Below are positions 2,135-22,396 of a DNA stretch of 32,725 nt, in pieces; position 1 is the first letter of the stretch; the number at the start of each line of letters is the position of its first letter. A program made the translations under genes and the position numbers. The stretch covers positions 1-32,725 of the forward strand of contig JAJHPN010000178.1 of the NCBI GenBank assembly GCA_020890855.1, read 5' to 3'. The notes under the pieces are model-generated. The model was not told the origin of the DNA and did not search any database. It saw only the letters and a program-made list of their open reading frames with translations. This DNA comes from Candidatus Contendibacter sp. (lineage in GTDB: Bacteria > Pseudomonadota > Gammaproteobacteria > Competibacterales > Competibacteraceae).

Positions 2135-2175
2135 ATGTTGCATCGCAACATAAATCCCGTTATATTGCACTGCAA
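2135..2175 (+). promoter_or_regulatory. Phasin promoter with two TTGC-N3-GCAA operators
   Basis: A sigma70-like promoter is visible: TTGCAT (2138-2143), a 17-base spacer, then TATATT (2161-2166). Two dyads overlap it. ATGTTGC-ATC-GCAACAT (2135-2151) is a perfect 7-bp palindrome over the -35 box. TTGC-ACT-GCAA (2165-2175) sits over the -10 box and start region. Their spacing and TGC...GCA core resemble the sites bound by PhaR/PhbR, the repressors that sense PHA granules and control phasin genes in other bacteria (recalled knowledge, not checked). The regulator itself is not in this window. Confidence 0.7.
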
Positions 2176-2242
2176 CAAATACGGCAATAAGCCATTTCCC
2201 CGTTTAATCGCAGTCCACTCAAGTTCAACCGAGGAATTCATC

Positions 2243-2596
2243 ATGGTGATCAATCTGTTCAGTAAAGCTCTGGAAACTCCGCAAACCCTGCCGGAACCGG
2301 TGGTCAAGGCTAATAAACTGTTTGTCGAGAATATGGAAAAAATGATGGTGTTTCAGATGAACGCGCTCAAGTCGTATCTGGACATCGGTTTCAATCAGAT
2401 GAAGGCGGCTGCCGAAATCAATGATGTCAATAGCTTGCAGGATTTCTACAAGCGCCAGGCTGAGATCGCTCAGACGGTGCAGCACAAGATGATGGTCGAC
2501 GCCAAGGCCATGTCCGACATGGCGACGCGCTTCAAAGGCGAAATGGACGGTCTGACCAGGGCGACCTTTGAAGATGTGTTGCCCAAGGCGGCCTGA
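2243..2596 (+). CDS. Phasin family protein (PHA granule-associated)
   Basis: Small amphipathic protein that coats polyhydroxyalkanoate granules and controls their number and size. The 117-residue product has the phasin_2-type pattern: an N-terminal segment around LFSKALETPQ, then a helical, coiled-coil-like body (NKLFVENMEKMMVFQMNALK, then DFYKRQAEIAQTVQHKMMVD) with no cysteine and no signal peptide, ending KAA. ATG 2243 is set by GAGGAA (2231-2236) 6 bases upstream; the frame is open further up but lacks a better start. It has its own promoter with palindromic operators and is followed by a hairpin terminator, so it is probably a single-gene unit. No PHA synthase or depolymerase is adjacent. 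Confidence 0.88.
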   Translation: MVINLFSKALETPQTLPEPVVKANKLFVENMEKMMVFQMNALKSYLDIGFNQMKAAAEINDVNSLQDFYKRQAEIAQTVQHKMMVDAKAMSDMATRFKGEMDGLTRATFEDVLPKAA

Positions 2597-20447: not shown

Positions 20448-21044
20448 TTATCGCGTTGAGCGCCACCACAGCCGATAGCCGAGCAGGATCGCCAGCGTTC
20501 CCCCGTACAGCAACGGCTCGGTTAAATCGGCCTTGACCAGCCACGCATAGTGCAACACCCCTAACACCGCGATCAGATAAACCAGCCGGTGCAAGCGCTG
20601 CCAGTTGCGCCCCAACCGCTTCATCATTCCCTGAGTCGAGGTGATCGCCAGCGGAATCAATAGCAGGAAAGCCGCAAAGCCAACGGTGAGATAAGGCCGT
20701 TTGATCACATCCGCAACAATGGCCGATCCGTCGAAAAACTGGTCGAAAATCAGATAGACGGCAAAATGCAAACTGACATAGAAGAACGCGAACAGCCCCA
20801 GCATCCGCCGGAATTGCTGCAACCGGTTCCAGCCGGTCAAGCGCCGCGTCGGCGTCACCATCAAAGTCAGCAGCAAAAATCGCAGACTCCAGTCGCCGGT
20901 GCGATGACTGAGCGTTTCCACCGGATTAGCGCCCAGCTCTCCCTGCCACGCCAACCAGCCGATCCAGAACAGCGGCAGCAAACTCGCCAGAAAAACCAGT
21001 GGCTTGGCGACAAGGAAAAACCGGCGGGTTGCTTGTGGAGTCAT
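20448..21044 (-). CDS. msrQ: Haem-binding membrane subunit of the periplasmic methionine sulfoxide reductase
   Basis: MsrQ (YedZ) is the inner-membrane b-type haem protein that passes electrons from the respiratory chain or flavin reductase to MsrP, which repairs oxidised methionine in the periplasm. The 198-residue product has about six hydrophobic helices. Landmarks are GDWSLRFLLLTLMVTPTRRL, FAFFYVSLHFAVYLIFDQ (haem His), RPYLTVGF and LHRLVYLIAVLGVLHYAW with further His ligands. Normally msrP lies directly upstream; here the upstream DNA instead holds two small-RNA-like units, and no msrP is in the window. ATG 21044 is used; a GTG at 21065 would touch the upstream terminator. The leader is only about 22 bases from that terminator, so msrQ may rely on read-through. 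Confidence 0.9.
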   Translation of the reverse strand: MTPQATRRFFLVAKPLVFLASLLPLFWIGWLAWQGELGANPVETLSHRTGDWSLRFLLLTLMVTPTRRLTGWNRLQQFRRMLGLFAFFYVSLHFAVYLIFDQFFDGSAIVADVIKRPYLTVGFAAFLLLIPLAITSTQGMMKRLGRNWQRLHRLVYLIAVLGVLHYAWLVKADLTEPLLYGGTLAILLGYRLWWRSTR

Positions 21045-21065
21045 GGCAGGGTATTCGCTGGACAC

Positions 21066-21092
21066 AAAAAAGCCGGAACTTGCGTTCCGGCT
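21066..21092 (-). terminator. Rho-independent terminator of sRNA copy 2
   Basis: On the minus strand AGCCGGAAC pairs with GTTCCGGCT (9 bp, 4-base loop; 21084-21092 with 21071-21079) and is followed by a run of six T (21066-21071, sharing one base with the stem). Confidence 0.85.
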
Positions 21093-21143
21093 AAAGAACC
21101 ACCAAAGGAAGGTGTAGAGAAGAACAACATCTGAACGATGTCG
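21066..21143 (-). ncRNA. Putative small RNA, copy 2 of a tandem pair
   Basis: A complete minus-strand transcription unit of about 78 nt. It has a promoter at 21150-21179, a predicted start near 21143 and a Rho-independent terminator at 21066-21092. It shares 17 identical bases with copy 1 (21093-21109 here), giving RNA sense TCCTTTGGTGGTTCTTT, and also GATGTTGTT (21123-21131). The gap between the two blocks is 13 nt here and 9 nt in copy 1, a difference not divisible by three, and no reading frame with a start is shared. This argues for RNA rather than peptide function. I know of no named family with this sequence. Confidence 0.65.
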
Positions 21144-21149
21144 GCGAGC

Positions 21150-21179
21150 AGTTTAGTCGGTTTTGCTGCAATGCGTCAA
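21150..21179 (-). promoter_or_regulatory. Promoter of sRNA copy 2
   Basis: Minus-strand TTGACG (21174-21179), an 18-base spacer and TAAACT (21150-21155). CTGC-AAT-GCG (plus-strand 21166-21175), a one-end-imperfect version of the CTGC-N3-GCAG dyad at copy 1, lies in the spacer next to the -35 box. Confidence 0.65.
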
Positions 21180-21218
21180 GATTTTTCAGAAGCGCAACAA
21201 AAGTTTTTTGCAGGGCAT

Positions 21219-21248
21219 AAAAAAACCGGAGCAACTTGCTTGCTCCGG
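21219..21248 (-). terminator. Rho-independent terminator of sRNA copy 1
   Basis: On the minus strand CCGGAGCAA pairs perfectly with TTGCTCCGG (9 bp; 21240-21248 with 21226-21234) around a 5-base loop, followed by seven T (21219-21225). Confidence 0.88.
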
Positions 21249-21298
21249 CCAAAGAACCACCAAAGGAGGATTGAAAAACAACATCCAGATAAATGCTG
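21219..21298 (-). ncRNA. Putative small RNA, copy 1 of a tandem pair
   Basis: A minus-strand unit of about 80 nt with its own promoter (21305-21333), a predicted start near 21298 and a terminator at 21219-21248. Its core (21251-21267) is identical over 17 bases to copy 2. Just before that core the RNA reads CCTCC, so CCTCCTTT is complementary to a strong Shine-Dalgarno AAAGGAGG and could pair with ribosome binding sites of target mRNAs. The unit lies in the 332 bases between the oxidoreductase stop (21377) and msrQ. Because no terminator separates it from the oxidoreductase, it could also be made as a 3'-UTR fragment. Function is unknown. Confidence 0.68.
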
Positions 21299-21333
21299 CA
21301 ATGCAGTATAAAATGGCTATTGCATTGCGTCAA
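21296..21333 (-). promoter_or_regulatory. Promoter of sRNA copy 1 with CTGC-N3-GCAG operator
   Basis: Minus-strand TTGACG (21328-21333), an exact 17-base spacer and TATACT (21305-21310): the strongest sigma70 match in the window. The perfect dyad CTGC-AAT-GCAG (21296-21306) overlaps the -10 box and start point, and TTGC-ATT-GC (21320-21328) adjoins the -35 box. The dyad matches the spacing of the palindromes at the phasin promoter. Confidence 0.75.
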
Positions 21334-21376
21334 TACTTTTACCGAAAACCATTCATTTCATCGTTTATCAATCAGT

Positions 21377-22396
21377 TCAAACATTTCGCAACACGATTTT
21401 TCCCATTTGTTCCGCCGCCAGCAGCCGGCGATGCGCAGCGACCGCCTGCTCCAAAGGCCAGGTTTGATCGATGATCGGCTCGATGCGGTGGTCGGCGACA
21501 AAGCGCAACATCGCCGCAAATTCATCCGGCGATCCCATCGTCGATCCGATAATCCGCGCCTGGCGAAAGAACAGCCGCACCATGTCCAATCCGGGTGAAT
21601 TACCTGCGGTTGAACCGTAAACCACCAGTCGCCCGCCCGGTTTCAGCACCGAGAAACAGCCTTTGAACGCCGGGCCGCCGGTTCCATCCACCACCACATC
21701 CACGCCGCCGGTCAACTTGGCCAACTGCTGATCCCAATCTTCCGCCCGGTAATTGACGCCGCCCGCCGCGCCCAGTCGCCGGGCCTGCTCCAGCTTGCGG
21801 TCATCGCCGCTGGTGACAAACACCCGCGCGCCCAGCGCGACTGCCCATTTCAACGCAAAAGTGGCTACGCCACCGCCGATGCCGGTCACCAGCACCGTTT
21901 CGCCCGGTCGCGCTGCGCCCTGGGTCATCAGCGCCCGCCACGACGTCAGCCCGGCCAACGGCAGCGCCGCCGCCTGTTCCCAGTTCAAATGGGCCGGCTT
22001 GGGAAACAAATGCGCGGCGGGAACGCACAGGTATTCGGCGAAGGTTCCGGGGTCAGGCATACCCAACACCCGGAAAGTCGAACTGGGAAACCGGGGATTG
22101 GAACCCCAGTCATAGGCGGGATAGATCACGACTTCCTGACCAAGCCAGTCCTGCTCGAGCAAATCGTCCGGAACCTTCGGGCCGATTTTGTCCACTACCC
22201 CGGCGCCGTCCGAGCCGGCGGTGCAGGGCAGGCGAATGCCGGGATATTGGCCGAGGGTAATCCAGACGTCGCGGCGGTTGAGGGCCGCGGCGTACAGCCG
22301 CACCCGCACTTGCCCTGGCCCTGGCTCCGGAAGAGGGATCTCTTCGACCTGCAACTGATCGGGACCGCCGAGTTGACGGAGGATGACCGCTTTCAT
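21377..22396 (-). CDS. Zinc-independent alcohol dehydrogenase/quinone oxidoreductase family
   Basis: Medium-chain reductase of 339 residues. The GroES-like N-terminal domain contains MKAVILRQLGGPDQLQVEEI, AAALNRRDVWITLGQYPGI and CTAGSDGAGVVDKIG. The Rossmann motif is VTGIGGGVATFALKWA, with DVVVDGTGG and KPGGRLVVYGSTAGN. There is no four-cysteine structural zinc loop. NAD(P)H-dependent reduction of quinones or enals is the family expectation; the substrate is unknown. Its start codon overlaps the acyltransferase stop (ATGA, 22393-22396), so the two are co-translated. It is only distantly related to the MDR protein at 10291-11232. The first sRNA promoter begins 43 bases after its stop codon, with no intrinsic terminator between. 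Confidence 0.9.
   Translation of the reverse strand: MKAVILRQLGGPDQLQVEEIPLPEPGPGQVRVRLYAAALNRRDVWITLGQYPGIRLPCTAGSDGAGVVDKIGPKVPDDLLEQDWLGQEVVIYPAYDWGSNPRFPSSTFRVLGMPDPGTFAEYLCVPAAHLFPKPAHLNWEQAAALPLAGLTSWRALMTQGAARPGETVLVTGIGGGVATFALKWAVALGARVFVTSGDDRKLEQARRLGAAGGVNYRAEDWDQQLAKLTGGVDVVVDGTGGPAFKGCFSVLKPGGRLVVYGSTAGNSPGLDMVRLFFRQARIIGSTMGSPDEFAAMLRFVADHRIEPIIDQTWPLEQAVAAHRRLLAAEQMGKIVLRNV

Follow-up and report, generated by a model that had tools for sequence, protein, structure and literature searches.

A tandem pair of predicted sRNA genes with PhaR operator-like promoters in Candidatus Contendibacter

Competibacteraceae are glycogen- and polyhydroxyalkanoate (PHA)-accumulating organisms of wastewater plants and include the PHA producer Plasticicumulans. 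Full-text searching of the literature for Competibacter in combination with small RNA returned no paper. In the 32,725-nucleotide stretch of Candidatus Contendibacter sp. DNA analysed here (the window), two similar minus-strand units lie side by side, and a sequence-only reading had taken them for tandem sibling sRNA genes. Are they real sRNA genes, what might control them, and on which genes might their RNAs act?

Anatomy of the pair and its siblings

Both strands of the region 20500-22000 were scanned for promoters and terminators. Only two sigma70-like sites were found, both on the minus strand (0.5 expected by shuffling), and these are the TTGACG-17-TATACT and TTGACG-18-TAAACT promoters that had been read from the sequence (Table 1). 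Each precedes a strong terminator, the two strongest of the region lying at 21250-21224 and 21092-21071. Both terminators were where the earlier reading had them, although the copy-1 stem pairs over 10-11 bp and not exactly the 9 it had counted. Their U-rich tail is a feature of Hfq-dependent trans-acting sRNAs, and Hfq use by the pair may be expected. The 17-nt core TCCTTTGGTGGTTCTTT is common to both units (21267-21251 and 21109-21093), as is the block GATGTTGTT (21285-21277 and 21131-21123), again as originally placed. The folding energy of both predicted RNAs beat all 200 shuffles (z of -3.2 and -5.9).

Table 1. Features of the sRNA pair, its neighbours and the reference phasin locus in the window
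Feature	Position	Strand	Basis
Sigma70 promoter of sRNA 1, TTGACG-17-TATACT	21305..21333	-	promoter scan; kept in type-A relatives
PhaR operator-like site 1 of sRNA 1, TTGACGCAATGCAATAG, over -35 box	21317..21333	-	matches YTKNTGCRNYGCANMAR (PMC12849132); kept in type-A promoters
PhaR operator-like site 2 of sRNA 1, ATACTGCATTGCAGCAT, over -10 box and predicted start site	21293..21309	-	
sRNA 1 (type A), ~80 nt, predicted 5' end	21219..21298	-	
5' hairpin, sRNA 1	21279..21298	-	folding, covariation
Anti-SD core region, sRNA 1, AATCCTCCTTTGGTGGTTCTTT	21251..21272	-	
Intrinsic terminator of sRNA 1, including T tail	21219..21250	-	terminator scan, folding
Sigma70 promoter of sRNA 2, TTGACG-18-TAAACT	21150..21179	-	promoter scan
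PhaR operator-like site of sRNA 2, TTGACGCATTGCAGCAA, over -35 box	21163..21179	-	same sequence in close relatives; 1 mismatch to Ralstonia consensus
sRNA 2 (type B), ~78 nt, predicted 5' end	21066..21143	-	
5' hairpin, sRNA 2	21125..21143	-	folding, covariation
Anti-SD core region, sRNA 2, CACCTTCCTTTGGTGGTTCTTT minus first base	21093..21113	-	
Intrinsic terminator of sRNA 2	21066..21092	-	terminator scan, folding
Upstream neighbour: zinc-type quinone oxidoreductase/alcohol dehydrogenase	21377..22396	-	PF00107, PF08240; conserved synteny
Downstream neighbour: msrQ-like ferric-reductase-type membrane gene	20448..21044	-	PF01794; conserved synteny
Reference operator pair TGTTGCATCGCAACA / TTGCACTGCAACA in phasin promoter	2136..2177	+	
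Phasin gene with same operator type as sRNA pair, 19 kb from pair	2243..2596	+	PF09361

Besides the tandem pair, the genome has two more copies of the core, four in all. One immediately precedes rnpB, whose identity as the RNase P RNA gene was confirmed by RF00010; the other is on a different contig. Neither the two further siblings nor the operators in the promoters of the pair had featured in the sequence-only reading. The exact 14-base pattern was present in 21 of 40 relatives, all Competibacteraceae, and in none of 15 genomes outside the family; a reversed control pattern gave 0. Alignment separates the sequences into four types, with copy 1 in type A, copy 2 in type B, the rnpB-linked RNAs in type C, and a further type D. 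In most of the Competibacteraceae loci examined, the A- and B-type genes, often in tandem, are flanked by the quinone-oxidoreductase gene and msrQ. The motif CCTTTGGTGGTT is invariant in 33 sequences, themselves gathered using that same pattern, and is retained in the wider family recovered with the covariance model.

Base pairing is conserved as well. In types C and D, 10 pairs of the 5' hairpin and terminator changed on both sides, a number reached in 0 of 500 shuffles, and pairing was destroyed by sliding the partner strand. Covariation in the type A/B hairpin has weaker support, its score being reached in 2 of 500 shuffles. Across Competibacteraceae, promoter, 5' hairpin, anti-Shine-Dalgarno (anti-SD) core and terminator are kept as a unit, which supports the tandem sibling sRNA reading; the lack of such conservation in relatives, which it had named as counting against itself, was not seen. 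The pair very likely represents real sRNA genes, with transcription predicted to start from the two promoters.

Distribution and known RNA families

A covariance-model search of related genomes, proposed in the sequence-only reading, found core and terminator conserved across many gammaproteobacterial families. The model (R1, core plus terminator) matched in 115 of 369 sampled Gammaproteobacteria genomes and gave nothing convincing on 400 kb of control sequence. Among the matches listed in a pattern scan of GTDB were Thioalkalivibrio, Cardiobacterium, Wohlfahrtiimonas, Acidithiobacillus, Sedimenticola, Halothiobacillus and others; matches in Helicobacter, Bifidobacterium and Nanopelagicales had weak scores and look like chance. 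Relatives from outside Competibacteraceae typically have the core CTCCTCCATCCTCCTTTGGTGGTT, which contains two anti-SD blocks. Triple-copy tandem arrays were seen in a Thiotrichaceae MAG (L110 5786-6056, model R1) and in G286 (L355, G286:C3:217943-218301, RF02278 model), and genome G006 has six matches of model R1.

The earlier reading had recognised no named family. At threshold this stands: Rfam gave no family in the window and, in 15 related loci, none except RNase P. Below threshold, however, RF02278 matches the same loci in dozens of genomes. RF02866 and RF02278 are the best sub-threshold Rfam models for the pair. RF02278 scored 20.6 and 15.7 bits on the pair against a gathering score of 50, 25-35 bits in relatives and 33.6 for the rnpB-linked sibling. 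It matched the sRNA at 6 of 8 gammaproteobacterial loci examined, being the best match at 5. Of 93 RF02278 matches in the class sample, 65 overlapped matches of the independent model R1, one of these, in G131, scoring above threshold; the two models coincide in 62 of 83 genomes. Because both models match the same loci, RF02278 with scores below its threshold in the pair, the RNAs appear to form a widespread, uncatalogued gammaproteobacterial family that is a distant relative of RF02278 and, by Rfam's own rule, not a member. Cuckoo RNAs of Alphaproteobacteria also have anti-SD loops and sibling copies; their likeness to the pair is by description and serves as a lead only.

RF02278, the Betaproteobacteria toxic small RNA, comprises the Burkholderia double-hairpin RNAs ncS03/05/27/62 and bdhR1, with Bordetella S17 related (PMC5688073, PMC11722255, PMC7011215), and has been described as restricted to Betaproteobacteria (PMC7011215). 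Bordetella S17 binds Hfq (PMC11722255). The pair shares with this family a short RNA, CU-rich anti-SD segments 5' of the terminator hairpin, several copies per genome and, as predicted here, carbon-metabolism and transport targets. It differs in its separate 5' hairpin and its PhaR-type promoters, and the core is different (CCUUUGGUGGUU). Burkholderia ncS16 (RF02866) likewise has a 5' hairpin, a single-stranded UCUCCU segment and a terminator, but the pair scores only 25.2 and 20.7 bits against its gathering score of 48, and ncS16, unlike the pair, sits after ompA (PMC5688073).

PhaR operator-like sites in the promoters

A PhaR-type palindrome, TGC-N3-GCA, overlaps the promoters of the pair, with CGC as first triplet in the -35 sites. 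The consensus was drawn from Herbaspirillum and Ralstonia (PMC3206438, PMC12849132), and the operator matches both the footprinted PhbF motif of the former, TG[N]TGC[N]3GCAA (PMC3206438), and the PhaR palindrome of the latter, YTKNTGCRNYGCANMAR (PMC12849132). Type A and B promoters carry TTGACGCANTGCARCA or a close variant over the -35 box; in type A another site, with 3 mismatches to the Ralstonia consensus, covers the -10 box and the start. The genome encodes PhaR (PF07879, E 8e-29) and has 56 matches to the operator motif versus 10 for the control. Similar operators precede three phasin genes (PF09361; one in the window) and phaA, a member of a cluster with phaB and phaR.

Beyond this genome, an upstream site with at most 2 mismatches was found at 28 of 153 sRNA loci versus 1.5 by shuffling, five of the 28 looking spurious on inspection and two having the site some 100 nt away. 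As a control, the downstream side of the loci gave 10, some of them the sites of tandem neighbours. PhaR was present in 17 of 19 operator-positive genomes versus 16 of 56 operator-negative ones (p = 5e-6, uncorrected for phylogeny and indicative only since the genomes are related), and the two operator-positive genomes without PhaR are incomplete MAGs (82% and 86%). In Cardiobacteriaceae, L059 and L119 have operator and PhaR whilst Cardiobacterium hominis and C. valvarum have neither, a contrast not explained by the Competibacteraceae clade. At Paraburkholderia RF02278 loci the operator is ambiguous, the palindrome core being broken, and among RF02278 loci it is clear only in G131. These promoter motifs suggest that the pair is likely under PhaR control, through predicted PhaR binding.

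The operator was absent at C-type siblings. Types C and D share another promoter element, GTTTGCTCTAA, with a -10-like TAGAAT about 10 nt later (L002 1300-1548, L004 1474-1650), in which no PhaR site was found at either locus. Elsewhere, PhaR-type palindromes were seen ahead of two other genes, one cytochrome c-like and one whose beginning resembles an IclR-family regulator (L164 312-443, L006 1500-1570).

Candidate targets, rival readings and proposed circuit

The exact sequence ACCAAAGGAG occurs upstream of a start codon in 48 cases across 39 genomes of the family; acs, a single gene out of thousands, makes up about one third of them. The other genes with it include DctP (TRAP substrate-binding proteins), FadD-like (acyl-CoA synthetases) and GlpK (glycerol kinase), names read from protein starts and not from family searches. 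Predicted targets of the Burkholderia RNAs are of the same kind as these further matches: TRAP, acyl-CoA synthetase and glycerol kinase (PMC5688073). When acs orthologues were fetched regardless of their upstream sequence, 15 of 28 had a 10-12-nt perfect complement, and several others retained pairing by other letters. Across the family CACCAAAGGAG, which complements the core exactly, is retained at the acs ribosome-binding site; in the 28 orthologues information is 0.84-1.29 bits at CACCAA, and conservation falls just outside CACCAAAGGAG. Mean duplex energy at acs was -21.6 kcal/mol versus -15.4 for ordinary starts. Shuffled extensions equalled the acs duplex in 12 of 300 cases, so that support is real but moderate, and the acs counts are not independent, the orthologues sharing ancestry. 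In most other sRNA-bearing families the acs site was mostly not seen (mean -15.6). The chance that acs is a direct target of the sRNAs, by the predicted pairing, is about even.

Another candidate, phaB, was rejected: it forms a strong duplex in the genus of the window, yet 248 of 300 shuffled extensions were as good over the family. In two genomes from other families (L332, L344, ~1470-1500), the start codon of acs is also preceded by AACCAAAGGAG or AACCACCATCAGGAG.

Several other readings of the locus were weighed. That the conserved RNAs encode short peptides is largely refuted and hardly credible: an ATG at GATGTTG does open a short frame in both RNAs, but the frames run through the terminators and base pairs are what conservation follows. 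The spacing between the shared blocks differs by 4 nt, as the sequence-only reading had noticed; the reading frame of the core therefore differs between the copies, which excludes a shared peptide. sRNA 2 might instead be partly the 5' leader of msrQ, its terminator attenuating that gene. The msrQ start codon lies about 22 nt past the sRNA 2 terminator. In about 15 distinct loci msrQ is found a short way downstream, and the window shows no other evident promoter. The same RNA anatomy, however, recurs at the rnpB-linked and fourth loci, neither of which is beside msrQ, and conservation extends over the whole unit of promoter, core and terminator; we consider a leader function very unlikely. The msrQ start (21044-21066) is without an evident Shine-Dalgarno sequence, and read-through coupling from sRNA 2 is possible.

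A broader alternative is that the RNAs mimic the 16S rRNA 3' end (CACCUCCUUUA) and generally lower translation, hitting no particular targets, during storage or slow growth. The core resembles that 3' end, relatives outside the family have two anti-SD blocks, CTCCTCCATCCTCCTTTGG, and the core extension lacks a genome-wide match to ribosome-binding sites, its complement showing no enrichment there among 119 starts of one relative. RF02278 RNAs also inhibit the growth of E. coli (PMC5688073). Against this, CCTTTGGTGGTT is invariant though GGUGGUU is unneeded for Shine-Dalgarno pairing, and conservation at the acs site spans the same stretch. We regard a general damper of translation as unlikely, though clearly less so than either a msrQ leader or peptides.

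Our preferred reading, which we hold to be probable as a whole, is that the pair encodes sibling trans-acting sRNAs, two of a set of four, controlled by PhaR. The single-stranded core CCUCCUUUGGUGGUU (CUUCCUUUGGUGGUU in sRNA 2) would pair with Shine-Dalgarno regions AACCACCAAAGGAG(G) and block the start of translation. PhaR would repress the tandem pair, and not its two siblings, until nascent polyhydroxyalkanoate granules titrate it off the DNA and the sRNAs are made; in other organisms, granules are known to release PhaR (PMC12849132, PMC12542648). The predicted direction of regulation is negative: the sRNAs would lower expression of acetyl-CoA synthetase and of further genes for carbon uptake, so that storage would feed back on uptake.

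This type of circuit has a precedent in MmgR (RF00519) of Sinorhizobium meliloti, whose RNA does not match the pair: a search for RF00519 found no match in the window, and only 23.3 against a gathering score of 41 in Cardiobacterium. MmgR is an sRNA with a PhaR-bound promoter, and it tunes PHB (PMC12542648). It is alphaproteobacterial and has been reported to affect phasin expression rather than acs (PMC12542648).

More tentatively, and with slightly less than even confidence, we suggest that a widespread RF02278-related anti-SD family was recruited into the PhaR regulon in polymer accumulators, where granules would post-transcriptionally repress acetyl-CoA synthetase and carbon transporters. 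If so, a sRNA family regarded as betaproteobacterial would extend to a large part of Gammaproteobacteria, PhaR would control sRNAs of unrelated sequence, MmgR and the present pair, in two bacterial classes, and these organisms would possess a direct, testable switch between storage and uptake.
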